64,000 nt of DNA from a candidate division SR1 bacterium (GTDB lineage Bacteria > Patescibacteriota > Gracilibacteria > Absconditabacterales > Absconditicoccaceae), in the NCBI GenBank assembly GCA_026397475.1, contig JAPLUT010000007.1:1-64000 (forward strand), written 5' to 3'. The notes beneath the pieces were generated by a model, which saw nothing but the letters and a program-made list of their open reading frames with translations, was not told the origin of the DNA and did not search any database. Made by a program: the position numbers and the translations under genes. Shown piece by piece: positions 12,879-61,752 of the stretch (its first letter is position 1; every line of letters begins with the position of its first letter).

Positions 12879-12926
12879 AAACATATTATATATACATAAT
12901 AAAGAAAGGCAAGTACTAAATACTGT

Positions 12927-12954
12927 AACCTCGCAAAAATTGCGGGGTTTTTTT
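12927..12954 (+). terminator. Terminator after uvrC
   Basis: AACCTCGCAA-aaa-TTGCGGGGTT stem followed by seven Ts. The T-run overlaps the -35 box of the next promoter. Confidence 0.8.
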
Positions 12955-12980
12955 GACAGATGAAAGTTTCTGAGTACTAT
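12953..12980 (+). promoter_or_regulatory. Promoter TTGACA-N16-TACTAT
   Basis: TTGACA 12953-12958 and TACTAT 12975-12980 with 16-base spacing, directly after the uvrC terminator and 36 bases before the next ATG. Confidence 0.6.
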
Positions 12981-13016
12981 TATAGTAATAAAGCCTTTAC
13001 CTGTTCAGAGAACAAT

Positions 13017-13994: not shown

Positions 13995-14050
13995 TCATAT
14001 ATCATGAATCTTGTATCAAATAATCTTTTAACCTTTTAATCTTAATAATC

Positions 14051-14335
14051 ATGAAAGTTTCTAACATCCAACAAGCAACAGACCTCGTTTTCGCTCAACT
14101 CAAAGAAATCAATCCTGATATACAAAGAGACGATGTCTACGAAACTATTATGGACGAAGTCTTAGAATCAGTAGAATTTATTTTGACGGACAACGACATG
14201 ATTTTCTTAGAAGATAACGAAGGAAATCCAGTAGCCATTGATGAATATCTCCAAAGAAAAGTTCCTGATTATCACAATCTTATCAACGAAATCGTATTGG
14301 ATATGGTAAGTGAAGAAATTGGAGAAGAAGAATAG
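14051..14335 (+). CDS. Small acidic helical protein (paralogue 1)
   Basis: A 94-aa, very acidic protein with no UGA codon but only two glycines. Its layout (short N-terminal helix, DVYETIMDEVLESVEFIL, DNDMIFLED, YLQRKVPDYHNLINEIV) matches the proteins at 21956 and 26219. All three share a central Glu/Asp helix, a following loop, and a final helix of the K-x-P-x-F/Y type. They resemble CPR families such as DUF5663. It sits 56 bp before a 912-aa protein. A chaperone-like partner role for the adjacent large protein is only a guess. Confidence 0.7.
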   Translation: MKVSNIQQATDLVFAQLKEINPDIQRDDVYETIMDEVLESVEFILTDNDMIFLEDNEGNPVAIDEYLQRKVPDYHNLINEIVLDMVSEEIGEEE

Positions 14336-14392
14336 AAAACCACACATCAAAAAAATCAGATAATATAAAATTTATTTATAAAAAATAAGAAA

Positions 14393-25300: not shown

Positions 25301-25447
25301 GGTGATCCAGAAAAATATGAAAACGCGCTTAAATCAATTTGAATAGAAGACAATAGTGTTACGCATGGATGCCCAAACGTAGAAAACTTTGGTATCGTTT
25401 TTGATAATCTATCTCTATGAAGTAGAGTATATATTAATCACGAATAA
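22361..25447 (+). CDS. Methyltransferase-like / L,D-transpeptidase fusion (1028 aa)
   Basis: Residues 1-120 are helical. Residues 160-270 form a Rossmann-like, SAM-methyltransferase-type module (ICYPGSSIDSSFAD, NVVHLDRDANAIKML, YDLVLDSRP, VKAGGYVLVEN). Long coiled coils follow to about 670. A hydrophobic segment near 680-697 (ALILGIAGGLIGGIY) is the single membrane span. The last 190 residues carry a YkuD-type L,D-transpeptidase: His 974 in IAIHP and SVTHGCPN with the nucleophile Cys 1004. L,D-transpeptidases make 3-3 peptidoglycan crosslinks or anchor proteins to the wall. The N-terminal module would be cytoplasmic. A terminator follows. Confidence 0.82.
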
Positions 25448-36876: not shown

Positions 36877-37347
36877 ATGAATAAAATTTTTTTTATAATC
36901 GAAAACCAATCAGAAGAAGCGAAAGCAATCTTACTGGGAATATCATTTATTGCTACTCTAATATTGAGAAACAAAGAACACAAGATTCGTAACTTTTTGG
37001 GAGCCATGGTAGTAGGCGGGGTAACTACTGGTCTAATTACAACCCAAACAATGGATATAGCGTCTGTTGGATGGATAGCGGGCCTAATTGCTACCAGTAT
37101 AATCGCTATCAATGCAGTATTTGCATGGTTCACCATACTGCATGGTTATCAGAACATGTTTTCAGCCATCAGCGAGATAATGACGGTGGTATGCATCATC
37201 GAAATAGGCATAATCAATGCCTGGTTCGTTAACACTACTGTCGAAAGTAGCAAATGGGAAACATTCAACATCCTTCTTATAGTTGTTCCATTATTATGCG
37301 TGTTTTTGTGGAAATCACTCCGCAAAAGAGGATATGTGGTGATCTAA
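36877..37347 (+). CDS. Multi-helix membrane protein, UGA-free
   Basis: A 156-aa protein with about four to five hydrophobic helices (starting near residues 14, 39, 62, 93 and 128) and a basic C-terminus (KSLRKRGY). It is not recognised. All of about ten glycines are GGN. It is the first of four consecutive single-gene units (36817-39628), each with its own 16-spaced promoter and terminator. Its terminator has the same stem as that of the fourth unit. Confidence 0.78.
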   Translation: MNKIFFIIENQSEEAKAILLGISFIATLILRNKEHKIRNFLGAMVVGGVTTGLITTQTMDIASVGWIAGLIATSIIAINAVFAWFTILHGYQNMFSAISEIMTVVCIIEIGIINAWFVNTTVESSKWETFNILLIVVPLLCVFLWKSLRKRGYVVI

Positions 37348-37377
37348 TCTAAGCACAACAAAAAAAACTATTACATT

Positions 37378-37405
37378 CCGGGCGTATTTCGTCCCGGTTT
37401 TTTTT
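37378..37405 (+). terminator. Terminator type 1, copy 1
   Basis: CCGGG-cgtatttcgt-CCCGG and eight Ts. The same stem and loop recur at 39602-39628. Confidence 0.85.
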
Positions 37406-37461
37406 ATATTTTTCTCCAAAATATATCATATTCTCCAGAATATGGTATTTAGGCAAAAGGA

Positions 37462-37489
37462 TTGACTTATATTAGGAAATATATATAAC
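37462..37489 (+). promoter_or_regulatory. Promoter TTGACT-N16-TATAAC
   Basis: TTGACT 37462-37467 and TATAAC 37484-37489; 26-base A-rich leader to the ATG. Confidence 0.75.
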
Positions 37490-37514
37490 AAAAAGACAAA
37501 CAAATAAAAAAACC

Positions 37515-38366
37515 ATGGCAAAAAATGTTTTTATTATTTTGATGACAGTGATGTCATTGAGCTCCTTTTCTCAGGAGATAAAAAAAGAGGAAAATACAAA
37601 TCAAGATATAGGTGTAGTATACACCGACTCGTTATTAGCAGATATCATCAAAGATTTTCGTCAAATTCATGAAGAAAGGCTGATGATCAATGATGAGGTA
37701 AAATCTATAAACGAAGAGAATAGAAATAACACGAAATCTATTCTCATGCTCAATCTCTATCATGATTATGATATGCAGAAAGCATGGCTACAAAGGATAA
37801 TAGAAAGTCCAGAGTACTTCAGAAGGCTAATTATTGAGTATTGCACGGAGAGAGCTGCTAATATTGAGAGACGGGAACGTATTGAGAATCTTTCGAAAGA
37901 TTACATAATAGAACATTATGAAAAAATAGAGAAAAGACTCGATAATGTTGCTGGATACAGCAACTGGATAACGCACCTACCCAATTACTATGAAACATGT
38001 ATCGGTGTACATGAATTCGCTCACCAATCAACGAACCATGGGATATATCTCTCCACATACGCAAAAAATCTGTACAAACTAGCTTTTGATTCAAGCAAGG
38101 TTGATGGCAAGATTATTGTTGCGATAGGAAAAACGGATAGAGAATACTATGGAAATCAAAAAGAACTTGATGCAATGAAAAAGGAACTAGAGTTTGAACT
38201 AGAGCGATTGGAAATTAAAAAATACGAAGAAACATTTACCCATGAACATTATGTGCAAATAATGCAACTAATAAATCAGGGAGTATTTACTAGCTATCGT
38301 ATAAAAGTCTTTTTGAAAGTAATTAGACCAGAATTCATGGAGCAAATTATGAACACTATTACCTAA
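37515..38366 (+). CDS. Exported protein with HEFAH motif, UGA-free
   Basis: A 283-aa protein with a signal peptide (NVFIILMTVMSLSSFSQE). The mature part is charged and helical. Near residue 174 it has VHEFAHQSTNHG, an HExxH zinc-protease-type signature with a further His seven residues after the motif; a third protein ligand is not obvious. It contains long Glu/Lys helices before and after. All eight glycines are GGN. A peptidase role is possible but not shown. A remote parallel is the EELAHSK protein at 1888, also exported and of similar length. Confidence 0.75.
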   Translation: MAKNVFIILMTVMSLSSFSQEIKKEENTNQDIGVVYTDSLLADIIKDFRQIHEERLMINDEVKSINEENRNNTKSILMLNLYHDYDMQKAWLQRIIESPEYFRRLIIEYCTERAANIERRERIENLSKDYIIEHYEKIEKRLDNVAGYSNWITHLPNYYETCIGVHEFAHQSTNHGIYLSTYAKNLYKLAFDSSKVDGKIIVAIGKTDREYYGNQKELDAMKKELEFELERLEIKKYEETFTHEHYVQIMQLINQGVFTSYRIKVFLKVIRPEFMEQIMNTIT

Positions 38367-38388
38367 ATTACATTTAAAAAATTACAAC

Positions 38389-38419
38389 ACTCGAGGCGTT
38401 TCCGCTTTGGGTTTTTTTT
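38389..38419 (+). terminator. Terminator type 2, copy 1
   Basis: ACTCGAGGCG-tttc-CGCTTTGGGT and a T-run; the same stem recurs at 39024-39054. Confidence 0.8.
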
Positions 38420-38441
38420 AATACGTTCTTATAACGATAGA

Positions 38442-38469
38442 TTGACTTTCACAAAAGAATACCTATGAT
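38442..38469 (+). promoter_or_regulatory. Promoter TTGACT-N16-TATGAT
   Basis: TTGACT 38442-38447 and TATGAT 38464-38469; A-rich leader of 30 bases. Confidence 0.7.
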
Positions 38470-38499
38470 ATAAAAACAAACAAAAAATATTGAAAAGTT

Positions 38500-39003
38500 A
38501 TGAATATATTATCAATAAATTTATCAGAAGAACCAATAGGATTGGTCATACTGATTGGTACAATTAGCGTTCTTTTAGGAGCGTTCATCGTCATGAACAT
38601 TCCAGAAAAAGGACAGATAAAAATGGAAACGGTAAAGATTAAGGGGAAAAGGAAACAGAGAGAAAAGAAGGAAGCTCCAACCACCCCGATATCCCGGATA
38701 ACAATAAGCATTATTGTCATCAACATTTGCTTGTTTATTATTGCAGGCGTATGCTCTATTTACCTAAAACAAGACAACGAAAAACTTATATCTTTTATAG
38801 GTATACTAGCATTTCTTGTGATGGGTATAATAATGTCCGACAAGGTAAACGTAGTTGTTGCTTTATTTGTTGGTGCAATCACAGGGGTGCTGATAAACCT
38901 AGCAGTGACGGAGGAAGTCCTACCATTTATAGCATTCACAATCCTTCTAAGTATAGGCATGTTTGCTAAATACAAATACACCAATAGGGATGAAGAAGAC
39001 TAA
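38500..39003 (+). CDS. Membrane protein, UGA-free
   Basis: A 167-aa protein with one N-terminal helix (about residues 13-32), a basic cytoplasmic loop (VKIKGKRKQREKKE) and four further hydrophobic helices between residues 64 and 155. All eleven glycines are GGN. No family recognised. It is the third unit of the UGA-free array. Confidence 0.75.
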   Translation: MNILSINLSEEPIGLVILIGTISVLLGAFIVMNIPEKGQIKMETVKIKGKRKQREKKEAPTTPISRITISIIVINICLFIIAGVCSIYLKQDNEKLISFIGILAFLVMGIIMSDKVNVVVALFVGAITGVLINLAVTEEVLPFIAFTILLSIGMFAKYKYTNRDEED

Positions 39004-39023
39004 CATCGTCAAAAATTACTTTC

Positions 39024-39054
39024 ACTCGAGGCGTTTCCGCTTTGGGTTTTTTTT
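39024..39054 (+). terminator. Terminator type 2, copy 2
   Basis: Same stem, loop and T-run as 38389-38419. Confidence 0.8.
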
Positions 39055-39074
39055 ATATTCTCCTTCAAAAATAT

Positions 39075-39102
39075 TTGACATACATCACAATATAGATATA
39101 AC
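39075..39102 (+). promoter_or_regulatory. Promoter TTGACA-N16-TATAAC
   Basis: TTGACA 39075-39080 and TATAAC 39097-39102; 31-base leader to ATG 39134. Confidence 0.75.
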
Positions 39103-39133
39103 CCAGACACAAACACAAATTAAAAAAAACAAC

Positions 39134-39580
39134 ATGGAACTATTAAAAAATCCTTCTCTCTGGACAACAGTCCTTTTAGGAATAATCGCATTTATTTTAG
39201 GATTTTTAATAATAAAATCCATTAACAAAATTGAAAGCAACGGTCATAGTCGTCTTGAAACAAAAATAATTTTTGCAGCTTGCATTATGGTTGGGATGTT
39301 CGCAACAGGTTTTGTGATTCTGTGTATAATTACAGGAATTATTTTGGTAGAATGGGCATTCATCATAGGATGCTTGATTACTATCATAGTAAAGGTAAAA
39401 TATTCTGATGGAGAAGTTTTCTTACTCACAGGCCTGGGTATTGGAATAATACTCTGTTGGTATGTAGGCGTAGGTATGGCCAGCAACCAATGGAGGTTAT
39501 TAAACATCAATCTAATCATTTTGTTTGCAGGTGGAATATGTGGATACCTCTACGAAAGAGGGAAAAACATACGCTATTAA
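39134..39580 (+). CDS. Glycine-rich multi-helix membrane protein, UGA-free
   Basis: A 148-aa protein with about five hydrophobic helices. It has some 18 glycines, all GGN, although glycine-rich native proteins nearby use many UGAs. The start ATG 39134 follows the promoter by 31 bases; the frame is open further upstream but that part overlaps the terminator of the previous unit. Not recognised. Confidence 0.75.
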   Translation: MELLKNPSLWTTVLLGIIAFILGFLIIKSINKIESNGHSRLETKIIFAACIMVGMFATGFVILCIITGIILVEWAFIIGCLITIIVKVKYSDGEVFLLTGLGIGIILCWYVGVGMASNQWRLLNINLIILFAGGICGYLYERGKNIRY

Positions 39581-40034: not shown

Positions 40035-43000
40035 ATGATTTGATCAAAAAAAGTTTTTGTACGAACACTTATTATTTTCTATGGAATATCCTACCTTTTG
40101 CAGAATACGCTTTTTGTAGATCGAAAAAAAGTATATGCTGCAGAAACCCCTAGCACAACAAACATTGTAGCGGTTTTTGTAGACAAAAATATCTATGAAG
40201 GAATCAAAACCAACCTTGAACGATATACTACAAGTTATATCCAACAAAAAATAGCTAATAGCAAAGCAGTAGTTTTTCCTATTGATACGACGACAATGAA
40301 GGCATTTGAAATTTCAAAAATGCTAGAAAATATGTATTTTGAATGAATCAAAGACCAAAGTTCAAAACTTGTAGGAACAATACTTATCGGAGATGTTCCC
40401 TTGCCAGTAGTACAAAACAATGGCTTTATTTATCCAAGTATTTTTCCTTATGTAGATTTCGAACACCAAGAATTTGTATATGATAGCAACAAAAAGTTTT
40501 TCGTATATAACGATAATCCAAATGGACAGGCGGAATTGTGGCATGGAATAATAAAATTTGATACCGCTCAGCAATACAATACCTTTTTTAATAAAGTAAA
40601 ATCATACAAAGAAAATCCTATAAAATTCATAGATAAGGCGATTCGATATGAAGATTTTATCGGGTTGAAAAAATATTTTATTCCAGAAAATACGAAATAT
40701 TATATCAACAACTTGTTGTTTGCAGAAGATATGGGATATCATAGATATAACAACCTTCTTCTCAATACTCTCAAGAGCGAACACAACGATAGCTCGCTTG
40801 CAGTAGGAAACGACTTGAAAGCAGATTTGCAAACAACTACCGATCCTGACCTCAAAGCATATGCCACAGATATATGATCTAGAAATGATCAGGCTGCAGC
40901 GACATCACAAGACGTAACTTCAAGTATGCCGACACTGACGCTCAAAAAAGCAATACAAGAAATGTTAAAATGATACGATGGGCTAATAAGCTCACAATTC
41001 TTATCAAAGATAAAAGACAATATCAACGGACTTGCGAGACGATATAAAACTACGGAAGGAGAAACATTTACCGACTACGGGTCACTTACCAATAAAATAG
41101 CACAAAAAGATAATCGACTTTTGTGAGATCCAGACAACAATGTACAGCCGCTCCTCATCCAGATAAATGATTTTCTAGAAAAATGACTCAATAATCAAAT
41201 AGAGCAAGAAAAATATTATATGACAATGCCGATACCTATAAGCGAATTAGACTTTGCAGGAGAAACAAGACGAGTACTGGGACTCAAACCAAAAAAAATA
41301 TGTACACGAAAAACATATAATTATTATGAAAATTATTTTTTCGGAAAAAATGCAAACCTTATAACAAGTGCAGGACAGACAAGTATATACAGAGGGACAT
41401 TTCAGAACTTAACTTCTATCGACAATCAAAGCATAAATAAAACTGGGCAATCCATAGGAGGATCCTACGATCTTTTTTCAACTCAAGTAGAGGCAAATAG
41501 AGGATATGATTTCAATACCACAAAAGATGAATTAGAGAGATATGCAAAATACAAAACAAACTATAGATCGCTTCGACAACTCAAATGTACGAACTACTTT
41601 TTATGATTAGAAAAGATATTGTGAATAGAAGGAATTTGTCTCAGTCCAAGATTTCGATCCGTTGATGATGGTCCAGATGAAAATAAATGTTATACTAATG
41701 ATCCAGAGAAACAGTGATGATGCGAGACTATGAATGAGTTTGCAGCAAGAAGTCGATGAGGAGCTTCGCCTATGAATATGGATTCTACGACACAAAAATT
41801 AGTAAATTATAATTATAAAAACGCAACGCAGCCGATATACAATATCGCATGATCCAAAAAAATAAATGTCGCTCAACAAGACGCAAACTCATATCAATGA
41901 GCGATAACTTATACCAACATCATTCAAAGAAAGTTTGGAGTCTGAGATTCCCAATATGGAAGCAATGATATCATGTCACTTATTTCCAATCCACAAAGCA
42001 ACGGAAGCAATCTTACATTTACCAACCAGCTTCCTGTAGGAGATCTTAAGAGTCCTATGCGAATACCAGTAAACCCAAAAACATATGCTCAGACAAACTT
42101 CTTTTCTCTTTTTTGAAGTTTACCAAACCACATAATAAACGCATGAAAAGCAGTATTATACAATGTAAATCCAGGACAATGTTGAGGAGATGGAAGCATA
42201 TACAAATATAAAACTATTGATTCTAGAGTAAAAAACATATCACCTACACGAGATCAGATTACAGATACGGAGTTTTATAAATTCAAAGACTCTTCGGATC
42301 TAGAGGTATTTTACAATGAAGTCATAAAAGATCTTGCACAAACAAAAACAGATATCTTGACAGCAAATACAGTGTTTAGTGGTACCGATAGCGCAGATAG
42401 AACATGAGTTATTTCTAATCTCACAAACCTCAAAACAATAGTCACGAAAGTAAATAGTGGTATGCAACAAATCATTGCATTCAATACAAACTTACTCACA
42501 GGATATAGTTGAGGACAAGTGACACAACTAGCAAACATACGAAGTTGAATTATGATAACTCCAAACAAACTTTTTGAAATAAACGATAGAATCATACAAA
42601 CCAATGAAGGACTAGATGTATTGTTCAACTATATCAATAGTTTGAGCATGAATACCGTTGCATTATCATTTGCTGGAATCATACAATCAGAAAATTTCAA
42701 AAATCAGAAAGTAGAAATATTGGACTCACGAAAAAGCAATATACTTCAAAACATGAACTATATCACAGCGAATGTAGCCACACTCAAATCAACATTTACT
42801 ACAGCACGATGAATATACAATACCATAGGACTTGTAAACAATAATCTTGCAATCATCCAAGCAAAAAGAGACGCAATAAATGCATTAGACGAATCTTGTC
42901 TTCCAAGCCTCTGTTGATGTGATATTAGTCATTATAAGCCCGTATGTGATGTATTGGACAAACTTATTGTGACCCTACAAACAGATTTAACTGCACATCT

Positions 43001-46000
43001 TGCAAATTCTGGAGTCAACGACAAACTGACTGAAATAGCCCAATACCAATCAAGCAATGGAATAGTTCATCCTCTTTTAGAGATAAATCAAGCATTCTCT
43101 CCTGCCAAAGTATTGGGAGAAATGACTCAAGTAAAGAGCACGATGAACGCCTTTGATGTTTCATCCAATCCCGATAAGAAAGAAAAAAATAAAGGAATGA
43201 ATCTGACAACCCAAGATAGACCGATTGATAATATCAGAAATATAACTTTTCAAGGTGTGGGTTGAGATATGGTAAGATTAAATTATGTAAACCTCTACGA
43301 AGTTAAAACGTACAAAGAAATAGATGGAAAGCTTGAATTAAAAACGCCAACAGAAATTAGAGAAGCAATAAAAAAATATTTAACAGACAAAGCGACTGAA
43401 TATAACACCTTGCTTGAAGCACAAAAAAACAAAAAAAATCAATGGTACCAATCCTATAGCAGCCAATTTAATCTCTTGGGACAAGTAGATCCTCTAGCAA
43501 ATCCAAACACCCACAATTACAATCTCATCCCAACGGATTACTTTATCAATCAGTTGATAACATTTTTAGATACCATAGAAAACAGTCCTGAATACGGGAA
43601 AAAAGCTATTTACGGAATAGCAAATTCAGCAACAATAGATGACAAACTAGATATGATAGCAAAACTCCTCTACTATCAAAACATTACTTGGCCAGAGAGA
43701 TTACAGCAAACAAGTGTAGCAGGAGACATAGAAGAAATAAAATCCAGTTTTGATGTAAATAGAAAAATAAGTAATATAGTAAATACCTATCTTACGGAAT
43801 GAAGCGATCAAGGTAAGTTTATTACTCCGATATATAACACTACATGATATGAGGTCGGATATATAAATTCTGATGGTGAAGATTATGTTTCATCAAAACC
43901 ACTGCCATCATTCATCCAACAGATTCAAGCTGCACAAGAAAAATCAACCAGCAAAACAAATACACCCGCAAACGCATTTAGAGAAACGACATCAAGTTCT
44001 GATGAGCTTCAAGCTCAAGCAGACAGCTGTGAATGAGTAGACGCGCAATGAGTTTCCTTGCTTTTCGATATCAGTACAATGAGTTCTCCATGGATGAAAG
44101 CGATGAAGTGTCGATGAAAACAAATTCTAAAAAAACCATTCGACATCAAGATAAGTTTTGCTAATTCAGTAGGACCAATAGTTACAAATACAATACAAGA
44201 CACACAAAACACGATACAAAATACGGAAGCACAATGGAAGCAATATGGATCACAACGAACGGCTCCAAACAATGACGATATCATCAACAACGCGCCTGAC
44301 GGCATAAAACAGAAATTACAATGATACAATAACTCGGCAATCATAAATATAGACAAAACAATTGTCGGAGTAGACGACTCAGGAAGCACCCAAATCAAAG
44401 TAGGTATGACCGACAACTTAGGAGACATCAACGTAAAAATATCATGAACAGGAGACAATTGTTTCGCTATAAACAGAAACAAGACAGTGCTCAGCGACAA
44501 CATTTGTACCAAACCAGCAAAAGAATTTTATAATCCAAATACCGACGAATACGTATTTGATAGCATAATAAAACAAAAGAAAGCGTGAGTTACAACAATA
44601 AAGATAGAACTCTGTCCTGCAGGATCAAATATTTGTATAGTCAAACAACAGGTTATAAGCATTCTTCCTGGTCCTATAAAAACAATAACATTACAATCAC
44701 CTACAGATATAGTTATGGAATGAGCAGAACTTCCTCTAGTAGTTTATGCGGCAGACAAATACAACAACCAAATAGGCCAAAATATCCAAGCGTATACAAT
44801 TAGCTTAGGAAGCGGTAATGGGAAAATTTATGATGGAACAAATGAAAATTCTAGTATCAAATTCGACAACTTCCTCCAAGCATGATTCATATATAGAGCA
44901 CCTACAGGAATCCAGGCAAACGAAGCAGTAACGATAACAATAGCTCAAGACCAATTAAAATTATTATGAACAACAGAGAAACCAAACGTAGTACAAAAGA
45001 AGATTATTGTTGCCAAAGGCATAGTAAATGTGCTCAATAAAAATGTAGTAATATATACAAGTAATACTCCAAAAAATACACCACAACAACTGACATTTAA
45101 TTTACCAAAAGACGAAACAGACATTCAATATCAAGACGAGAACGGAATTTCTGAGATTAAACCAGAAAACATTCCAAGCTTGGTAATCACTATCAAAGAC
45201 AAAAATGGAAACAGACTTGATACGGTAGCAAACATAACAAGCAAAGAATGATTTTTATCCCCAGGAACAACAAAAGATAAAACAATTACAAAAAACGGTA
45301 TCACAAAAAAACAAACATTGTTTAGTCCAGGAAATGATTTTATCATCAAAGACGGACAGCTAAATATTTCATTATATCCAAACTTCAAAGCAGGAAACGA
45401 TGCCATTACGATAAACATTCCAGGAATAGATCCTATTATCATACCGATAGTAGTGAATCCAGGGACAGCAAAAACGGTTATACTTCAGCTAGAAAAAAGC
45501 AGGATGGACTTTACTACCACAACAGGAAGTAAATGAACGATCCACGTAGTAGATAGCTGGAACAATAATGTTACGAGCTGAACAACCATAAAATTATGAG
45601 TAATTTGAGCAGCAAACAGCAGCGTATCAGAATTCAATTATAATGGAAACGAATACACGTATATGCTCAGTGCAAAAAAGCCAGGAGGAGAATGATATGT
45701 TTTTGCTTACATCAAAGAAAGAGCTCTTTCTGATCAAACGCCAGGATATGAAAAATTTATAGTACAAGAAAGCATTCTTCCAAAAGAAAAACTTAATGTG
45801 ATGTACCTCAATCTTTTCTGAACAGATCGATGAAATCAACGATGATATTTTTCTGAAAACAATAAAATCATAAATACCATAACCAATCAATCAAATAAAT
45901 TATTAGCTACAACGACGGAACTCGTAGATCCAAGTAAAATCAAACAAATAGAATTTATTCTAAATCCTCATGGACAAATCCAAAGTATCAACAACAAAAC

Positions 46001-49000
46001 AGCTACGCTTACGATAGAAAACAAAAAAATCATAGGAACACTTCCAAACATCGCAAAAATAGATTTATGATTAAGCAACCAATATAAGATCCAAACACTA
46101 ATAGATAGTTGAGCTATATCAGAATTTAAAAAAGACAGCAACACCTTAATATATATAGCAGAACCTACGGATAGTATTATCTCAGGAAACCAAGCAACGA
46201 CAACAAAAGTAACTATCAATGGTATCGACGTAATTGATATAAATAAATGAAATATAGATCCCAACATCACAATTATCGCAGACAATGAAATCCTGGGGGA
46301 TATGAGCATCTACACAATCAGATTCAATGGAACAACAATAGGAAAATTTATGCTCTGGAATAATGGAAATATAACAAGTGATAAGACACATATCAATCTA
46401 CAAGATCCTGCAACATATGGAATGACGAATATTTTTAGCGAAGGATCTACAAATACTCAATGAATATGAATTTATATAAATTGAAGTGCGTTTACTAAAC
46501 AAGGATATCAGTCTATCGAAGATAGTACTGACGCAATGCTCGGTATAGGATTTACAAGCAACTTCAAAAACGTATCGAATTTCGCGAATGGACAATCTGT
46601 AGGAGAAGCGACACTTCCATATGGATCACAATTTCTCGTAAACTTTGGAGATCCTCTTCTTGAAAGAAAAGAAAACAATCCAAACATACCCAACACAGAT
46701 TTTGATGCGTCAATCGGACAAACTATTTATGCTGATCCCAACAAAACGATATTCAAGGTGATTCCGATCGATTTCAATAATGATGGAGTAAAAGATCTCA
46801 TAGTTGTATATACCGATGGTGTAGTTAAACTTTTAAAGAACTATGGAGGAAATGTTCCTTACAAAGATCTTCAAGAACTTATGATTATAGCAGAGCCTAT
46901 CAAAGAGATTAAAATAGGTGATGTAGATGGAAATGGATATGAAGATATATTTATTATAACAAACAACAACAAAGGAATAGTATATCTCAACAACAAAGGG
47001 GTATTTGCTGTTGATGGAAAAAATATATGTTTAAATATAAACACAGAACCAGGAACGAAAAACCCAATTCCTGACAATTTTGGAGGGATCCAACAGCTCT
47101 TTGTACAAGACATGAATCAAGATGGAAAACTAGATATCGTAACGAACGATACGTATAATGATGTAAAAATATTTTATGGAGGAAGTACAAACAATTGAGC
47201 AAATTACGTATCATCTACGACTTGAATTTGTGATAGTCAACGATACGAAAGACAAAAGAATAATTATAAAACCGTAAAACGCTTTGGAACGAAAATAAAC
47301 AGCAGTCGATATATCCAAGACACGAGTCTTATTCATCGAAAAGGTGAAACAACGTCGACAGAAGGAGTTACAGAAGAATTAGATACCGAAGCTCCAGATA
47401 GCGCAATAGGAATGAGTAAGGATCAAGTAGACGCACTCAAAGATCAAACAATGAATGACGTCAAATCAATGATAGCAAACAACGATACCTATGTCGCTGC
47501 AGGAAGCACGCAACTAGCATACACGGACAATCCTCTTTCTACTGCTCCCGTATACGAATCACTTCCTCCATCAGAGATATCATATCTTCCCATCAACGAG
47601 ACAAATGATTTTGTAAGCGTATATAAAGAATATGTAGATATCAATGGTTGAGTTTTAAGAGAAAACGATGAGGTCGCAATTCAAACCACAATCATTTCAA
47701 AAAAGAATAACAACAAATTAACGTATATAGACGAGCTCAAATGACCACGAAGTCTAGCTACAGATCCTGACAACAAAATTAGTTCATTTACCCTCCTATC
47801 CGGAGACACAAATAAATTAAATATCGATCGAAAAGGTCCAGAAGGATATCAATTTGTAATAGACAATATACAGCTTGATTCCGGTCAAAGTTTAAGCTTT
47901 TCATATACCGCAAGATACAAACAAACGACACCAACGACAAAAATTGATGTTGCAGATCAAGATCTTATTACGCAAAACAAACACAAAGATACCTATCCAG
48001 ATATCACGATAAATAGCATGGATGCCTGTGTAAAAAACAGATGGATTCTTTTCAACACAACAGCAGGAAATAAAACAAGCTACGAACAAGTATACGACGA
48101 TATTCAAAAAGATATGAATGAGTATAATAGCTGAGCAAAATCAACACAACAAAGCGCAATGAATGGAATGGTAGATCAACTATCGAGTATAGATAGCTTA
48201 GATGCAGTATCGACATTGCCAGGCATGGATTCTTTAGAACCACGAAGCTCCAAAAATTTAATGTCTTCTCTTACTCAAGAAGTTACTCCATGAGAGATTA
48301 TTCAACCAGGATGAGTATGATTAACGATAAATACAAGTTTCATAGACAACGCAACTGCAAAAGTTTCCAAAAAAATGGATGCAGCATTAGAGGGACTTTG
48401 CCAATGATTCAAATTATGAAAATGATGATGTCAGTGACTTCCAGTTCCGTTTAATCAAGCATTCTTAGCGCCAGGAGATTATCATGTTTTCTGATGTGTG
48501 CCCAAGTTACCAAATCCTCTATATGCAGCATTCAAGACACTCAATAATACTTTAGGGAAAGGAATGCCATTACTTACTATTCCAGGAAATCGATGACCTA
48601 CTGCAGTAGGATATCTTCCTATACCAGGAATATTTTGATATCCATTCAAATGAGCAACAGACTGATTTTATTTGTGAAATCTCTGATGAACCTATCCCTC
48701 ATTATTTAGGCTTTATATAGCTCCTACACTGACACTTGGACTAGGAATAGCAATGTGTTTTGGTCCTTATACCGTAGGTAAAGCATTACCAAAACCATTT
48801 AGAGATCTCTGAGGAAACTGTGTCGTCTTTGCGGTACCACCACTCACAAAATGCACTCCTGACAAGGCAGGATGATGAGATGATCAGCCTAACCAGGAAA
48901 GCTTATGATCAAGTATGGTTGCAGCAGCTGGACAATGAACATGTAATAATCCGCCAAGAATAGGAAACAGTATTGTATTTGCTAATGGCATAGAAACAAC

Positions 49001-52000
49001 AGTAAACACATCAAATTCACCATTTCAAATGGTAGCAGCATGATCATCAGAAAACAATCCGCCTTACTCAGCAGCTATACCTCAAGGAAACTTTGGATGA
49101 TTAATTTCTATAGATCAAGATCCAACAAGAGTATCAGCAGCAGAAGATTATGGAAATGCAACACAACAGGCACAACTATGAATAACATCTGATGGATTCG
49201 ATCTCCAAAAATGAGAAAAAATAAATCTCAAACTTTTATGAGCAAAATGAAAAGGACTCGTAAAATGTGTAGTACAAAAATGGATGACAAGTCAGATACA
49301 ATATATTCAAAACAATCTGACCAAGATGACAATCCAGGTAGATCTCCCTGATCTAAGCACAGTATTTCAATGATTTGATAAAATCGGAAACTTATCAGAA
49401 ACCTATAACGCAATCAATGAACAAGATCAAGCGGCAGGATACATTAAGAGCACAAACGGACAATGAATAGGTTCTGGAAATAACTGAACCCAATATCTCT
49501 CCAAACAACAGCTCAACAACATCTCACAAAAAGCAGGAAGCAATCCATTTGAAGCTATACAACAAATGTTTAATGAAGTCCCACTTATAAACATAGATTC
49601 CAAAGATGTTAATATCAAGATACCATCACTTACCATCGATGACATCAAAAAATATCAAAGTTATCTTACGCTATGGATAGCAAAAAATGGACAAATAATA
49701 GATGATTGGACAAATATGTTCAATCAGATATTAGCAATATGTGGAACGATAGATAAGCCTGAAGCACAAAAAATACATGATGACCTCACGGCAGCATTGG
49801 CAAAGATTCCAAGCGGCGGAATTAATGATAACATAAAACAAGAAATACAGGTAGAGATTTCGAACATGCAAAAAATCATAGATAAGACAGGAGCACAGAC
49901 ACAAAAACAACTAGCAGCCGACATCAGCAAACTCACAGAAAACTTAAATAATACCATCACAAGAATAGCTACCCTACCAAGCTGGAAAGCAAGACAAGTG
50001 CGACTGGAAGGCAAGAAAAAAGTAGCAACAACACTGGGAAATACTTTTGACAACCAAGCATTGCTTGATCTGACAAACGTAAAAGTAAAAAGTTTAGAAC
50101 AATGTGCGGGTGTTGCATGATCTCTAGATGGATTTATTAAGTTCAAAGAAAACAGTGCATGACTTATAAAATCAATCAAAGAAAATATCAAAGTTTTGGA
50201 TAAATACAAGGAATTCCCAACACAATTATATGAATGGACCCATCTCACAGACAGATACCTCACAGAGATCTCATCATTACTTTCAAGCTTCGTAGGATCA
50301 ACAACATCATGGCTCAATACCAACGCCAATAGATTCTCTCAATATGTAGATGCAATAGTTTTATTGGTAGGAACAATAAAAACACGACAAGCGATTATAG
50401 ATTTCTCTGTCAATCGATCAGAAAAATGTTCTAAATGTAGCAACGATAACTACGGATCCTTTTCATGTAGTCTGTCATTCCTTTGTCCTAAATTACCGAT
50501 ATTCCCGATTCCTCCATTTAAGATACCAAGTATATATATGGATATGTCACACATAGATTTGGGAATGAATATCGTTCTGCCAAAAATAAATTTTGTACCT
50601 ATCAAGATACCATTACCACAATTACCAAACCTCCCAGAACCACCAAGTATAGAAGTAAATTGGGATGTTCTCTTTGGATTAAACCTAGATTTCTTCAAAA
50701 ATATTTCATTACCAACGGTTCCTGTAATTCCTGGCCCACCAACATTACCTGAACCACCATCATTTATTCCAACGGTAAAAATGGATTTGCCGGTCTTACC
50801 ACCTGCACCAAAGATTCCAAAAATAGCGCCTGATATAAAGATAGTTCTCAATGTAGCAAAATTCATATGAAAGGTTTTCTGTATCATTAAATGAGGTATT
50901 GGTCTCGTAGGAGAGAAATGAGTAAAATGAAAGATAGAACAAATAACTCAAAGAACATGGAACGTTCCTATTTTTGATTATTTTAATCTGACAACAAAAT
51001 TCAAATCTCCTCCTCTTCAATGATTTGATTACAAAATGGACGCATATATGACACTCAAATTCAACTTTGATGGAGTATACGATGTGTTCAATAGTATCGC
51101 CAGCGCAAGCAACAAGATTGTCTCACAAGTAGTAGAAGCACCAATCCAACAAGCGGTAGATCTCACAACAAACACACTCAATAACAATGCAGTAGTAAGC
51201 TGACTAAATACAAATCTTGATCAGAACATTAATTTCAATGGATACCATAGCAACGAATGAGAGACAGGTATGATAGAATATAAAACTGCATATGATGAAT
51301 TGAAAGAATGATTAATAAGTTTCAAAAATGCAACTCTCGAGGATAAAAACATGAACAACAGAGTAAAAACAATCTTAGCGACGGTTGACAATAAATCAAT
51401 GATTTTGCCAGCTACGAGCCAGATCCAACAAGTAGAAAAAGAAGCCAAAGGGATTATATCAAAAAAGATAAAGGAAAATCAAAACTTATCAAATGATATA
51501 AAAAATTACGATACCTTTATCAAAACAATTCAAAATAACGAAGTCGCGTTAGTCGCAGAAAAGACATTATCTACAAGCTTAAAATCACCATTGCTTACGA
51601 TAGATTCACCTACAAAAAATATATTACAATCACAGGAAGATCCAAACAAGAGCTATCTCTCACTCAATAAGAGGATGGTGCAATGATACTTAGATGCTGT
51701 AAATAATGATGGCCCAGAAAAGCTTAACATGTCACAAACAACGTATAATAAATCAAAAATCTATCTAGAAAATACCAAAGAAAAAATAGATACTGCACTA
51801 TTAGCATACAACGATAAGCCGCTTCTAGCACAGACAACATGTACCAACTGTACAAGCAATGCAACAGAAAACAATAATTACAGCGCAGATATGTCTGCAT
51901 ATGTAAATGGAGTTTTCATTGCATCGTATAGTGGAAGCCAAAAAAACATGATTAACACCGTCACCTCAGTTGAACAATCACAAAACGTACAAAAGACATA

Positions 52001-53807
52001 TATGACAGATTTTGATCTCAATAATGATAAACTTCATGACATTCTTATGTATGACGCAAACAGTATTTATATTAAGTACGCAAAACAAGAACTTGAGCAC
52101 TTCTCAAAAGGATGAGCAACATTGACTAAACATTACAACACATTCTATAGCTATGCGACAGAGCATCAAAGCACACGAATCAATCCACAAAAGCGATATA
52201 TCGAATCCCTAGATCAACTCAGCAACAACACAGATGCTTATGGGTACCTTACAATAAACAACATCACGATCAAAGTGATGGACAAAAACACAGAAGTAAA
52301 AAACTTTAAAACAGATGGACAAAGTTTCGACACCCTCCAACTTTCATGGAAAAATAGTAAAATCATAGGCGAAGACGTCGATGGATATCTCATAAAAGTA
52401 AGCAACAGAGTAGATAGTAAAGATATGCCAAGTAGCTTCCGATCTTTCTTATGAGGAGGAGAAAAACCAAAATATATTGTGGTGCTTCCAAAAGATACAG
52501 ACTATAAAAAATGATTGCTCACTATTGATGAAAATCTACTCAAGAAACCAATCAATCTGCAACTTGGACAAAACATTCTTGCCGTAGAATACTATGACGA
52601 AGCAAAAGACAAGATTAATGTAACACTCAAAGATCTCCCAAGAGAATGGTTATATACGAGCATAGCGACACTCAAGATAAATCAAAAAGAATTGTCTAGT
52701 AGTCAGCAAAAAACACTTGTCTTGTATAAAAAAACATCCTCACGATCAAATCAAACCGTCGCAGGAATGCAAAACCTAGGAGATACAACTGCTCCGGTAG
52801 GAGACGTTATCTTATGGAGAAATGTAACAAGTGAGGCCATAAGCACAGGGCTTGTACATGAAGGATATATCAATACTAGCTACACCCTAAAATCAATCCG
52901 GACAGACAATGTAATTGTTGCCAAAATGATTATCCAAAAAGATGGGAAAACTCTTTTGGAAAAAGACAATCAATCTCAAACTGGAACAATCGATTTAGGA
53001 GGCCTCTTCTTTACGGGAGATACAGAACAAAATTTCGACTTCATAGCAATCGATCAAAATAACAATATCACGAAACAAAATATAAGCGTAAACATTGCAA
53101 CACCAGATATAGAAGTCCTTGATGTCAAAAAAACTTGAGAAGCGACTGCCGATATCATAGCAAAAATTAGCAATGATTTGGATGAGGGTATGGTAATATT
53201 CCAGAGATTAAGAAATGGAATCCGAAGCAATATCAGTGGTTCAAATCAGAATACTTATGGTGGATTTGATCTTTCACCCAAACAAACAATAATAACATGA
53301 GGAATATTTACGATGGGAGACGATATTGGACTCTATGACAATCAAAACAACGAAATAGCTACAATAAATTCAAAGACCAATGAAATAAAAATAAAAGCAT
53401 GATTTGAAAATAAATTTAAGATTAATCTAAGTTTTACAACCCACATTCCTGTGGTAGAAGTAATAGATACAATACATAACGTAACCCTCTTCCAAATAGT
53501 TCTCCCTATACAATCCATCAGCAATATAGAGATGAATCAAGGCAAACCCAACTATGAAGAGCTACAACTTACAGACGGGCAATTTGGTGACTTCAACAAT
53601 GGATATTGTGTCAAAAATATAAAGAATGATTGTATCGTATACACCAACAAAGCATGAGCGATATATATTCCTTGAATATATGCAAATTCATTAGTAGGAC
53701 AGTACGTCTTTGATACTACGACAAAAAACACTAAATTTATTGTCAAAGATCAGTCCAATCAAGCAATTACAACGTTCACAGTTCAAATCAAACCAAGCAC
53801 AAAATAA
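40035..53807 (+). CDS. Giant secreted surface protein (4590 aa)
   Basis: One frame without TAA or TAG for 13,773 bp, with well over a hundred UGA glycines. ATG 40035 is the only usable start: TAA 40014 lies just upstream. A hydrophobic signal segment (LIIFYGISYLL) opens the protein. Residues 30-170 contain LVGTILIGDVPLPVV and SIFPYVDFE, resembling gingipain-like (C25) N-terminal parts. Residues 2240-2370 hold three FG-GAP/VCBS-type calcium loops (DFNNDGVKD, DVDGNGYED, DMNQDGKLD), with a degenerate relative near 3990 (DFDLNNDKLHD). A glycine-rich hydrophobic stretch lies at 2885-2915 and a Pro-rich region at 3475-3610. It is probably exported and surface-bound, perhaps an adhesin. Confidence 0.9.
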
Positions 53808-53831: not shown

Positions 53832-54701
53832 ATGAAAAAAATAATCATTACCCTGGCCATCATAACAGGAGCACTTACAAGTAGTGTTTTTGCTCATGAC
53901 TGTGATTTGGTCGTAGGAAAAGAACTTGATGGAGCAATGAGTAATTACACGACAAACTTAAAAGAATATAAAATAGTACTCCCCGATGATGCATTCAATC
54001 AGGCCTTACAAAATTTAAAAGCATACTGCTGTTCACAAGTCGTTCAAGGTTCGTGTACGCAAAAAGAAAAGGATAATCTCCCCAAGTTATATCCAGAAAG
54101 TCCTTATCTTTTTGATCATCTTGTAGATGTCAGTATGAGAAGATTAGATGGAATAGATAAACTAGCATATAATTTAACATCAGATCCGACAGCGAAAGAA
54201 CGAAGAGACTATATCACGAAGGTAGCTAACGACCCCACAGGATCACAATCAAGCACAATAGAAACTACCTACAAAAAATATTGGAAAGAAAATACAGAAA
54301 CAAAAAAAAATATGGAAACGTTCATCGCTAACTACAACAAAGACGTTACCACACTTTCGTTAGAGGATAAATATGATACCCTCTGCGGATTGATGAACGC
54401 CATCTACAAAAAAACACAAACAAAAAACCCAATTATCATCGGATCAGCATGAGAAAACAACAGCTTTTTAAATGGATGCCAAAACATAGTACAAGACAGA
54501 GTAAAAAGAGAAAACTCATATGTGAAAATGATAATGATAAAAAAGTCGAATCAGCTATTCGATGAAACAACAAAAGCCTATACCAAAAAGTATTTTGCAG
54601 AAGAAAGAATCACTGGTCTCTGGACATTAATTGCCAAAGTCCAAGACGCATTCAAAACGATAGTCCAGCAAGCCGCAGTATCTAAGACCTGTAGCAAATA
54701 A
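53832..54701 (+). CDS. Exported protein with cysteines
   Basis: A 289-aa protein with a signal peptide (MKKIIITLAIITGALTSSVFA) and cysteines in pairs (YCCSQVVQGSC, then ENNSFLNGCQ and KTCSK at the end). The rest is helical and charged. It starts 25 bp after the giant gene, so the two are probably cotranscribed and may work together. One UGA glycine. Not recognised. Confidence 0.75.
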
Positions 54702-54872: not shown

Positions 54873-55340
54873 ATGAAAAAACTCCTCCTCTCTCTCATCG
54901 TCTACGCAACGTTGATACTTCCGATAAGCTCATTCGCGCAACAATCTAACGATTTTGCTATTATCCCTGCAGCATCGAGCTGAGGAGCAGTAGAAAAAGC
55001 GGTAAATGCAGTAGGAGCAAGTGGAGGAAATGTTCGAAACAGCTACAACACCCAAGCGTGAAAACTAACTAGCGTCGGAGACCAACTAGCCTCATGAATT
55101 ATGACACGAGACACCCTCTTAGAATACGTTGTCTATCTTGTAAGATTTCTTTCTCAAATAGGATTATTAATAGGAGTACTGATGATCATCTACGCAGGAT
55201 ATCTCTACGCATCAAGTATTTTCAACCCAGGGAACATGGGGAAAGGAAAATCAGCGATAGGGAATGCTATCGTAGGAGTCTTAGTAATAGCATTTTCTTA
55301 CGCTATTATGAAACTACTTACAAGCGCGTTCTTGTCCTAA
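54873..55340 (+). CDS. Pilin-like two-helix membrane protein
   Basis: A 155-aa protein with signal peptide (MKKLLLSLIVYATLILPISSFAQ), a short Gly/Ala-rich region with UGA codons (SSGGAVEKAV, QAGKLTS), and two membrane helices (VVYLVRFLSQIGLLIGVLMIIYAG and AIGNAIVGVLVIAFSYAIM) joined by FNPGNMGKGKS. The design equals that of the protein at 27289 and of T4SS-pilin/VirB2-like proteins of CPR bacteria. It may build a surface filament or pore. Confidence 0.75.
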
Positions 55341-57040: not shown

Positions 57041-59116
57041 TTACTTGCTCTCTTGGATCCTAGTTTTAAGCTCGATACTCATATTGTTAATATCAAGCAA
57101 AGCCTCACTGAGGTTATTCCAAAGTGATTGATTATCTTTGAGGAGATTAATCATATTTTGAATAAACAAAATACTTGTTTGTTGGCTATAAGCGACAGCC
57201 TGATCATCAAGTGTAGCAATAGGAAACTTGGTGGTATTTGCCTGAGCAGCTGCAGTTTTAAACTTAGAAATATTTTGAGTGATATCTACGAGAGAGGTTG
57301 CAGATTCTAAATTTGCTTTGTTGACTACAGGATCAGAGATGACGATATATTTATTATAATCATCAGCATCAGGTGCGCTAGAATTTATCCCAAGTACTGC
57401 AAGATTCAAATCTTTATTTATCTGTTCTTGTTCTTTCTGTTTGCTAATATTGCTTTTTTGCTGGAAGACCGGCTTAAATCAGACTTGGAGTTTAAAAGCA
57501 AAATTATCAGCGAATTTTATTTTTACATTACTATCGAGAAATTCTTTTGTCTTTGTGAATTTAGTAGTCTGACCGCTATCCTTGAGTCCGTTCAAGACAT
57601 CAGAAATTTCTTGAAAAATAGCCTGAATACTTGATACTTTTTTTCATGGATTAACCGTTACTCCTTGTACGGGAACTTTACAAAACTTAATACGGAACAT
57701 ATCTTCTATTTTTTCTCGTCATGCACCATTAGGTCCAGCGATCATAAAACAGGTACAATCAGAGATACAAAGAGCCTTTTCTTGGATTCACAAGCCATCA
57801 CAATTTTGGATACATGATTTTGCATGACCAAGTTCACACTGAGCCTGTTCACCCAAAGGCAAACTCGCACAATCAGATGCCGTACTGCCAAAAGCTTGCT
57901 CGGCATAAGTATTAGCGATACTCGTTCCATATCATGGATCTGAAGTACTTGCTCCTGATGGCAATGAATTATTTTTATGAAATTGAGTTACAAGATTAGT
58001 AGTGATTACATCATCAATATTTGCATTTTGAATAAAGCTGACAATACCAGAAATATATTCTTCTGGCGTCATAAGTTCTGTTTGTTTAGACGCGTCAACG
58101 CCAGGCGTAGCTGCGATTCAAGAAAGACATTGATTTCAAAATACGAGAGCAGCGCCGGCAGGAATAGCTGGGGCTGTACCATTAGTATTTTCAATAAAAC
58201 TTTGAACCTCTTTATCATCAGTTATGGAAGGAACTTGTTGACTGGTAATCAGAGATGATGGAACCACAGAGCTATTAGATACAGTTGTGCTCGTACTTGA
58301 AGATCACGCAGAAGAAGATGATGATCAGGAAGGCGACGAAGTTCAGCTGGGTCATCATGTAGTGCCAGGAAATGACGAACCGCCACCTCACATTTGAGAT
58401 GATCACTGATTTCACTGCGCAGAAGAATTTCCTCCTCCTTGAGAAGAAGAATTATTTGCTACAGGCAATCTATAAAACAAAATTTGTGGAGTATCTTTGA
58501 AGCTATCAAACAAAATTTTTCCTACCTGATTGATATCATAAAGGATATCGAAATCACTATCATCTATGGTTCCATTCCAAAAGAAATCTGATCCATAATT
58601 ATCTTTATTGAGATTAGATGTTGCATATGAAGTAGTATACGACTTATAATAAACGCCATTTATTTCATCAGTAAGATTTTTGACATCGACATCAGTAGGG
58701 ACAAGGACTCCTCTACACACAAAAAATTTATTGTAACTCACGGTAACTTGTTTGTCGTTTGGAGCAACAGTTCACTTAGGAAGAATAATATCAAAAGTAT
58801 TTTTGAAAGAAAAATTTGAATGATAAAGGATATTAATAAAATCTTGCGGAGTCACACGAGGACAAGTACTAAAATATACTTTGAGCTGATCAAAAGATGC
58901 AGTAGTAGAAACAACCTCTCTATCTTTTGCTAATTTTAATGCTTTAGAATAAAGATTATTCACCGTAGATTTTCATTTGAAAATAGTATCTATCCCCGCA
59001 ATTTTTTCTGTCGCCTGCGTAAACATCTGCGAAAGATCAACAGCAAAAACAGAGGAACACGTTCCGATAAGCAACAAGCAAGTAAGAATGAATGTTCTTT
59101 TATGGTTTCTGAACAT
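57041..59116 (-). CDS. Exported protein with Ser/Gly-rich linker (691 aa)
   Basis: A single minus frame of 691 aa, free of TAA and TAG when checked codon by codon. Signal peptide: RTFILTCLLLIGTCSSVFA. Residues 30-225 are followed by a low-complexity Gly/Ser linker (about 225-290) with many UGA glycines. Then comes a Cys-containing region (SDCASLP, QCELGHAKSCIQNCD, CISDCTCFM) and a helical C-terminus. Start ATG 59116 overlaps the end of the upstream gene by 17 bp, suggesting translational coupling; ATG 59131 is an alternative. Not recognised. Confidence 0.8.
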
Positions 59117-60200
59117 TTCTGAGCTTATCATATAAAGTATAAACCGGAGGCGCAATATGGGCCAAATCTCTTCCAAATCCATGTAAGTCTTCTTGATACA
59201 TTAAGAACCCTATATGAAAAGGAAACGCCACATACGTATCACGCATCATTCTCAAACTCAAAGACAAGGCATCTTTTGACCAAGCATATTGAGAAGAAAA
59301 TGTTTTAAACACTGAAGAATAATTCAGGTTTCATGCATTTCATTTAAGTAGCTCTGGATATTGTTGAAGCATAGTAAGATAATATGCCATAAACAAACGA
59401 TAGTAAAAAAGTTCATTGTAGGCAAGGTTTACAAAGGAGACCATAGAGGCAGCTTTATCACCATACAATCAACAATAAAATACATCTTTTCATTCTAAAG
59501 CAGCACAAGAAATGCTCTTATCTTTGAGGGTAGATACTGCAAGGATGCCAGTAGCACTTAATATGCGAACATTGGAGAGAATATTACGTACATTTTTTAT
59601 ATATCATTGCATGATTTTGCAAGTCTGAGGATAACGAGGATCTCTTGTTCCACAAATTTCGACACCATCAAAATAATTTGAAGAAAAAACATTTATCTGA
59701 TGTATTCAATCAGGATCATCTTTAGAATCTGAGCTAAGCGCATACAAATCAGCCTGTTTCATATTTACGTAATCATTCATAATACCATTAAAAAGATTAG
59801 GAACATTTGTTGCCAAATCACAATCATTGCCCATAGAACCAGGAGAGCAAAGATCGGTTGAAAAAGAACCATCGCTAGCTATATCTTGGAATCAAAGTTG
59901 CTTAAAAGTAAGACGGCTAAAATAGCTTGTTTCTTTGCCAAAGTAAGAGGTGGGTTGCCCCATATTTCTACAAAGCAAATGAACAAAAGCAGATTGTTGT
60001 GCATTATATACGAAACCATTTGCGATAAACGGCTGAGAAAATACAAGAAGAGTAGAACAATATGCATTGATAAGTTTAGAAATAGTACCAGGATTATCTT
60101 GAGGCAAATCAGTAGACACAAATGCAAATATTGAAGAACGAGAAAAGAGGAGACAAATCAACATTGTCGTAAGTAGTGCTCTAGTCCATTGTTTTCTCAT
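59100..60200 (-). CDS. Exported hypothetical protein (366 aa)
   Basis: A minus-strand frame with signal peptide (TRALLTTMLICLLFSRSSIFAF) and a Tyr/Asn-rich mature part containing cysteines (STDLCSPGSMGNDCD, VEICGTRDPRYPQTC, SISCAALEG, VFYCGLYGD). UGA glycines at LFQ-type junctions, PDGIHQ, MQGYIKN and KGNAGNL. It ends with KLRNVQKP, overlapping the next gene by 17 bp. No domain recognised; likely extracytoplasmic with disulfides. Confidence 0.78.
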
Positions 60201-60223
60201 ACTCAACACAAACGAAATAAAAC

Positions 60224-60313
60224 GGTTACAGGTTACAGGACGAAGGGTACAGGTTGTTGTAAGTTGTTACAAATTGCTACAACCTGCAACCTGTTCCCTG
60301 CTCCCTGCAACCC
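60224..60313. repeat. ACCTGTAACC repeat, copy 3 (inverted, long)
   Basis: GGTTACAGGTTACAGG...GGGTACAGG at the left and CAACCTGCAACCTGTTCCCTG at the right face each other, so the unit is palindromic here. It lies between two minus-strand genes. Confidence 0.6.
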
Positions 60314-60321
60314 TATTGTAT

Positions 60322-61752
60322 TTACCAGCACCTTCCTCATCATCCACACTGCAATTCACAAGCCTCTCACAAGCTTTTAACCAAACTTCCATCTTTTGTT
60401 TTGCTTCAGAGAATGTCATTTTTGATAGTAGCTATTTGATCTCACAATATTTTAAATGCAGGAGTTACTTCCTTTATTTCTGTAAATGATGCGAGCCTCA
60501 AATCAGCGGGCTGACTTTCATAAACATCTACGAGATAAGTATCAATGATTTGTGCAAAGACATTTTTGGTATCATACGATTCTGTAGGAAGAGCTCCACC
60601 TCTTAGTTTTGTATCTTCTATGGCTCATGCCGTATCTTGAACGTTCTTGGGAAAACTTCGAAAAGCACTTATATCACTTCACAATTGAACAATTTGTTTC
60701 CCAATGGATGAAGTAACTTTAAGTGGACTGGTGAACAATAATCCTCTACTAACCTTTTGAGTACCATACATAGTAGTAAGCAATTCCTTTTCTCTAGCTT
60801 TAAATTCTTCGCTTTGATCTTTTCATTTTTTAAATACTTGAATAAGTCTTTTTACTGCATCTTTGATAGTTGTAATAGCAGCTCAAACACTATCTTTAGT
60901 ACTTGATGCTATCACTTTTATATTCTCTTTGAATTTTTTAAATGATTGGGTACAGACATTATTAGGCGCTCTTGCACACTCATATTCCAAAACAATTGTT
61001 TGCGCCGCATCAGCACTAAACATAATACGAATACCACTATCTCATCATGCGGTAATGGTATCAAGTTGACTTCTATCAGCAAAAGAAAGTATGCTCTTCA
61101 TAGCAGAAATTACCTTTGTAAGAAGTGAGGTAATATTGTTATACGTCACACCATCACTTAGCTGAGATCATTTATCAAGCACTCACTTTTGGATATACGT
61201 CTCAATTATTTTTTGCATAATCGCTAGATTTGTTGTATTGACAGCAGAATATCGTCACCCTCAAAGACCAAGTTCATATTGCTTATCTTTGAGTTGTGAA
61301 GCAAGTTCATCGACAATTTTTGTATCTCTCATAAAGACTCTATCTTTTCACAACAAAGCAATTCACTCAAAGACATTTTTGAGTCCACCAGCATTTTGTG
61401 TATCTGCAAGAATCGCTACGCTCGCTAGTCCAAACTGTATTTTTTGTGAAATATTTCTTGCGACCCTAGTCACAATACCTTGTGCAGGTGGAGTAAATAC
61501 ATTACCCTCAAATCGATTTGGATTTATCGGTTTTCCTAGATATGCTCATTGCGTTCCTATAGTCTTAATGCTATTCATCAGCTCCCTAACGAAATCAAGA
61601 ATAATCGTAAAGTTTTCTGGAGCTGTTCCACAGACAGGAGAAGATGCACAATATGCCTTCATATCTGCAGGTGGCGTAGCAGCAAAAGAAAAATTGCTCA
61701 CAGAGGTGATTAGAAGTAACATTGTCAATCCCCAAGCAACAATTTTCTTCAT
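60322..61752 (-). CDS. Exported hypothetical protein (476 aa)
   Basis: A minus frame with signal peptide (MKKIVAWGLTMLLLITSVSNFSFA) and a mostly helical mature part. It has a few cysteines near the N-terminus (AYCASSPVCGTA), one in CARAPNN, and a Cys/Gly tail (EACELQCGGGGRCW) in which UGA codes several glycines. Not recognised. It starts 26 bp after the TPR-protein gene ends and is followed by a repeat. Confidence 0.78.

Follow-up and report, generated by a model that had tools for sequence, protein, structure and literature searches.

What is encoded by a single open reading frame of 13.8 kb in a bacterium with a genome of 1.17 Mb? This question is raised by the first 64,000 nucleotides of contig JAPLUT010000007.1 from a candidate division SR1 bacterium (hereafter the window; contig C6 of the 8 contigs of its genome), in which positions 40035-53807 of the forward strand specify a predicted exported protein of 4,590 residues, hereafter the giant. 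The closest named relatives are candidate division SR1/Absconditabacteria and Gracilibacteria records. We report that the gene is intact, that it belongs to a family conserved as a single copy across the class comprising Absconditabacteria, Gracilibacteria and Peregrinibacteria, that it is accompanied by a conserved downstream set, and that in five families it is linked to one pilB-pilC-prepilin set. The giant is thus more than the oddity of one genome, a point that only its relatives could reveal.

One gene in two genetic codes

Under translation table 25, in which TGA is read as glycine, the frame runs without a stop from the ATG at 40035, with an in-frame TAA just 5' of it, to the stop ending at 53807, and contains 103 in-frame TGA codons. 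The coordinates, length, start and stop-free frame are as given in a first-pass annotation made from the window's sequence alone, which had also expected the genome to be small. At the window's A+T content, it is out of the question that 4,590 codons free of TAA and TAG would follow one another by chance (estimated at about e^-250). Furthermore, the giant is an unbroken frame of 3,700-5,300 residues (7,874 in one case) in independent assemblies of many relatives. Among fetched loci, it is a single frame of 4,501-4,612 residues in four congeners, of 4,097-4,350 residues in other complete family members, and of 3,897-4,693 residues in seven standard-code relatives, where no TGA is used at all; an eighth standard-code relative has the 7,874-residue frame, with 6,621 residues inside the fetched stretch. 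The latter (locus L037, genome G026) holds both the N-terminal and the proline block described below. Among 73 more loci, taken from named records, the majority show no break between the N-terminus and the edge of the fetched DNA.

At alignment columns where the window has TGA, glycine is found in 81% of congeners, 51% of family members and 30% of standard-code relatives; the corresponding values for GGN columns are 78%, 53% and 34%, against a glycine background of 7%. TGA therefore stands at conserved glycine positions, as membership in code 25 demands. Identity to the nearest relative is 76, 84 and 55% at codon positions 1, 2 and 3, respectively, and as the third position is the most diverged along the full length, the entire frame is under purifying selection. 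The 103 TGA codons could suggest an artefact of assembly or frame, with several genes fused by reading TGA as glycine; given that the same single frame recurs in independent assemblies and in TGA-free standard-code relatives, and that the TGA columns act as glycine, we grant this explanation practically no weight. Taken together, the homologous frames, the glycine-like TGA columns and the codon-position pattern identify the giant as one selected coding unit, and 40035-53807 is a genuine single gene.

A class-wide family and its downstream genes

With the first 1,500 residues of the giant as query, matches were obtained in 37 of 41 relatives. A profile of the N-terminal block matched 13 of 287 phylum-wide genomes, every one in the same class, and none of about 260 genomes sampled from the other classes of Patescibacteria; a profile of the cysteine block has the same distribution. 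Of 35 class genomes checked, 31 have the proline-ladder block, always as a single copy, the extra hits in G037 and G278 being pieces of one match each; counted over giant-bearing genomes, it occurs once per genome in 30 (two with split hits). The four genomes lacking it all belong to family f5, which is without the giant except for a short version in G201. The family is single-copy where checked, across the class.

In G201, positions 7769-16652 of locus L150 encode a protein of 1,058 residues that contains the helical/proline module; behind it come a gene with a weak resemblance to S2 (see below) and others. The locus may represent the same system in reduced form. We rejected the idea that the giant is reduced throughout family f5, as only G201 has such a frame and partner-like genes. 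It should also be noted that a 5.1-kb contig labelled Bacteroidales (L090) carries the N-terminal block; its label is probably a binning error.

The giant is followed by conserved, exported, cysteine-bearing proteins, their signal peptides having been judged from N-terminal sequences with no predictor. Directly 3' of the giant in the family lies S1 (53832-54701, forward strand), a predicted exported, cysteine-containing protein of 289 residues that starts 24 bases past the giant's stop; in most genomes, the first downstream gene starts 0-40 bases from the giant's end or overlaps it. The window's S1 and downstream gene 1 of the standard-code relatives have only their position in common, with no homology found between them. 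S2 (59100-60200, reverse strand, about 366 residues) and S3 (57041-59182, reverse strand, 713 residues, predicted to be exported) are class-wide partners, connected by iterated profiles to standard-code downstream genes 2 and 3, respectively. A fourth gene, S4, is present in several standard-code genera, while a cassette protein of 476 residues (60322-61752, reverse strand) is restricted to the window's family.

The order is giant-S1-(476)-S2-S3 in G013 and G014, with the 476-residue gene between S1 and S2. In G039 it is giant-1-2-3-4, and the genes overlap. The 476-S2-S3 block (57041-61752) of the window's genus is inverted and lies two unrelated genes past a VirB2-like pilin (54873-55340, forward strand; PF18895, E 6e-7), which adjoins S1 in this genus only; PF18895 has 11 matches in the source genome. 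Against PDB sequences, S1, S2 and S3 gave only coiled-coil or chance matches, and against PHROGs, S1 gave one weak match to a family of unknown function (E 0.0015).

Domain anatomy and the protease question

The giant shares its N-terminus with its congeners: MNG[SFT]KK, a hydrophobic stretch and a Y[AG]A-type cleavage site. The signal segment noted at first pass is present, though the window's hydrophobic stretch falls below the hydropathy cut-off of 1.6, which many relatives pass. One weak hydrophobic stretch follows at residues 3607-3625, and no later membrane anchor appears convincing. Neither does the protein carry an LPXTG-type sorting signal (a C-terminal motif plus membrane segment): no hydrophobic segment lies near the C-terminus, which reads ...VQIKPSTK.

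The most widely conserved block is an N-terminal alpha/beta domain at residues 36-300 (40140-40934, forward strand, as are all segments of the giant), with the motif LxGxxIxGxxPxPVV..PSxxPYxDF..ExWHG; the domain has an invariant His and Asp but no invariant Cys. Structure prediction, as the first-pass annotation had proposed, gave a confident model for residues 36-700 (predicted local distance difference test score, pLDDT, of 82.5) and a low-confidence one for residues 2700-3700 (mean 63.5), without a significant fold for either: the former has no match among solved structures in the PDB at E <= 0.001, and the helical matches of the latter are at chance level.

The same annotation had likened the N-terminal part to gingipains, which would make this domain an active cysteine protease and the giant a cell-surface protease. 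One of 18 giant members does match Peptidase_C25, at E 0.027, and the best clan-CD structure match of the N-terminal model is a C11 protease with a probability of 0.69, but its E is 0.22 and it spans just 109 columns. A PDB profile search returned no C25 chain, and across 67 N-terminal sequences no Cys is invariant or nearly so, leaving the gingipain His-Cys dyad without a conserved Cys. The marginal C25 match, the lack of a conserved Cys and the lack of a significant fold speak against the gingipain or active protease reading, which we rejected as very improbable.

The calcium loops of FG-GAP/VCBS type noted at first pass are borne out. Three of them, at residues 2246, 2296 and 2359 (46752-47234), fall in three stretches matched by PF13517 (E 2.8e-10, 41.1 bits versus a cut-off of 26.9), the only family matched in a Pfam scan at E <= 1; a lone fourth lies at residue 3994 in the C-terminal region (52014-52040). 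Profile searches with the FG-GAP region matched FG-GAP-propeller proteins, including a secreted esterase (4e-14) and integrin alpha. The giant thus resembles FG-GAP/VCBS repeat proteins in having PF13517 above cut-off, but differs in that FG-GAP accounts for only about 160 of its 4,590 residues.

Further along lies a cysteine-containing block found in class members only (residues 2785-2930, 48387-48824), with the motif PVPFNxAFLAPG ... FRxYxxPTLTxGLGxAxC and invariant cysteines. It is followed by a predicted long alpha-helical bundle (residues about 3201-3465, 49635-50429; local pLDDT about 70-90) and by a proline ladder (residues 3490-3600, 50502-50834) of repeated LPxxP/PP with invariant prolines. 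Proline content reaches 23-25% at residues 3481-3600, in agreement with the long proline-rich stretch described earlier. PDB sequence searches found no relative of the cysteine block, the proline block or the whole giant, and no enzyme domain was recognised in Pfam, NCBIfam, PHROGs or PDB sequence searches. A phage origin was rejected, no segment of the giant that was tried having a PHROGs match.

Linkage to a type IV pilus set and the proposed role

In 8 of 15 testable standard-code genera, from five families, pilus genes are found just 5' of the giant and in the same orientation (genomes G034, G039, G101, G190, G212, G233, G252 and G320). The linked genes are T2SSE/pilB, T2SSF/pilC and an N_methyl prepilin (pilC and prepilin only in G034). 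The prepilin ends about 130-250 bases 5' of the giant in five linked genomes, and genes intervene in G034, G101 and G190. Locus L085 is arranged in this way too but has two prepilins, and the arrangement at L117 is looser. As a genome of 1.2 Mb holds about two pilC genes, the chance of a same-strand pilC within 3.5 kb upstream is an estimated 0.3% per genome, which gives 0.04 expected in 15 genomes versus 8 seen. Moreover, a pilC tree gathers the 12 linked rows (11 distinct) in a single clade of 17 with support of 93/89 and places none among the other 35; 0 of 500 shuffles were as clustered, and every linked pilC is the same paralogue. The three family-f5 genomes in the tree, from a family largely without the giant, have no pilC in the linked clade. 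Because the linked genomes are related, and given the single clade in the tree, the most natural reading of the pattern is a single old linkage that five families have retained.

At five standard-code loci (L081, L082, L086, L087 and L102), a second large protein of 1,720-1,824 residues is encoded immediately ahead of the giant and in the same orientation, preceded in four of them by genes of about 770-850 and 550-650 residues. In the proteins scanned, no Pfam family scored above cut-off.

The likeliest reading, which we put at roughly even chances, is that the giant is a pilus-associated surface protein or adhesin for binding a host or prey, class-wide and working with exported partners. It is drawn from the gene neighbourhood, the export features, the binding-type domains and two precedents. 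Saccharibacteria require the pilus T4P-2 and its beta-propeller minor pilin PilX2 to bind their hosts normally (PMC12206443), and in Vampirococcus, an Absconditabacterium, giant surface proteins have been proposed for host fixation (PMC8080830). We infer export, surface location, binding and, in the window's own lineage, partnership with a pilus. In such a mechanism, the Sec system would export the giant to the cell surface, where it would work with a type IV pilus in the company of its partners, small exported proteins of disulphide type (S1, S2, S3 and others particular to a lineage). The giant would be the part that binds host or prey, and the pilus would either carry it or serve as its docking site. 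The N-terminal domain and the partners would serve assembly, the FG-GAP loops and beta-rich regions may provide calcium-dependent binding, and the helical bundle and proline ladder could form a stiff spacer.

Several observations weigh against a pilus-associated role. The linkage is absent in 7 of the 15 testable genera (G025, G026, G029, G030, G033, G038 and G278) and in every genome of the window's own family, and where it is present it may go back to a single ancestral linkage instead of several that arose independently. Gene neighbourhood also speaks only indirectly for a shared function. In addition, the giant has no match to the N_methyl prepilin motif (PF07963), hence it is not a pilin, and none to the PilY1/Neisseria_PilC propeller family in Pfam. 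The contact with a host or prey cell proposed at first pass is probable, and pilus linkage in relatives lends it some independent support.

The same absences make a different reading the strongest alternative, given that the window's own lineage is without pilus linkage: the giant may be a general surface fibre or coat protein, of the fibrous layer seen on Absconditabacteria, with a contact role independent of any pilus, the linkage being an inherited neighbourhood of no functional meaning. The giant and S1-S3 indeed remain together where pilus genes do not adjoin, and the giant proteins of Vampirococcus have been proposed to form a fibrous surface (PMC8080830). On the other hand, one and the same pilC paralogue stays linked over five families, which in our judgement is longer than neutral neighbours usually persist in genomes so rearranged, and a repetitive coat protein would not be expected to resemble the giant, which is single-copy and has a module of invariant cysteines as well as several non-repeat blocks under high conservation. 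We consider the coat reading unlikely, if worth serious attention.

PilB, PilC and prepilin genes are also common to pili and type II secretion machines, and the giant combines a signal segment with the lack of a convincing later anchor; it might thus be soluble and secreted by a machine that resembles a pilus or type II secretion system, with a remote effect on the host such as degradation or binding. The absence of any enzyme domain in the searches above, together with an N-terminal region without a conserved Cys, renders such a secreted effector improbable.

Among known systems, PilY1, the tip adhesin of type IVa pili, offers a parallel to the pilus-associated adhesin: like it, the giant is a large exported non-pilin encoded beside pilus genes in part of the class, has calcium-type loops in a propeller-like region and is expected to act in surface or host contact. 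However, the giant lacks the corresponding Pfam match, is several times longer and has its own downstream partner set, and the window's family is not pilus-linked; judged by sequence, it is not a PilY1 homologue. The role proposed here is the one shown for PilX2 of Nanosynbacter lyticus T4P-2, which also has a beta-propeller-type domain (PMC12206443), but PilX2 is a minor pilin that bears its propeller at one end, whereas the signal of the giant is of the Sec type and a pilin motif is absent, and no relative of it was found outside its own class. The giants of Vampirococcus lugosii, from the same lineage, have a similar top size (4,163 residues) and have been proposed for host attachment (PMC8080830); in that report, however, they form a class by size, and their domains are of various kinds.

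That Peregrinibacteria are enriched in giant proteins is likewise already known (PMC11573180). We found no description of the giant family, its partner genes or the pilus linkage in the open-access literature (subscription papers and preprints being outside its scope); these appear to be new, while giant proteins as such in Peregrinibacteria and Vampirococcus are known.

Elsewhere in the window, four consecutive open reading frames at 36877-39580 (156, 283, 167 and 195 residues) contain 47 GGN glycine codons and no TGA, in contrast to the 31% of glycine codons that are TGA in the rest of the window (p about 2e-8). The congeners compared have other genes in their place, between RNase J and the giant. 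The block seems to have come in recently from an organism that uses the standard code; it has no phage match. Three large proteins, at 17684-21898, 14393-17131 and 22361-25447 (1,404, 912 and 1,028 residues, respectively), are without a Pfam assignment, the last having a weak L,D-transpeptidase C-terminus.

About half of the genes in such organisms are without known function (48.9% in Vampirococcus; PMC8080830). As the giant family straddles the boundary between the standard code and TGA-as-glycine, its alignments provide a clean record of recoding. More tentatively, and in our estimation doubtfully, the giant and S1-S3(S4) may constitute an undescribed pilus-dependent contact apparatus for recognising and holding a host or prey, an ancestral defining trait of the Absconditabacteria-Gracilibacteria-Peregrinibacteria class. 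Little is known of host recognition in host-dependent Patescibacteria other than Saccharibacteria, and the giant is a concrete, testable candidate for this function.
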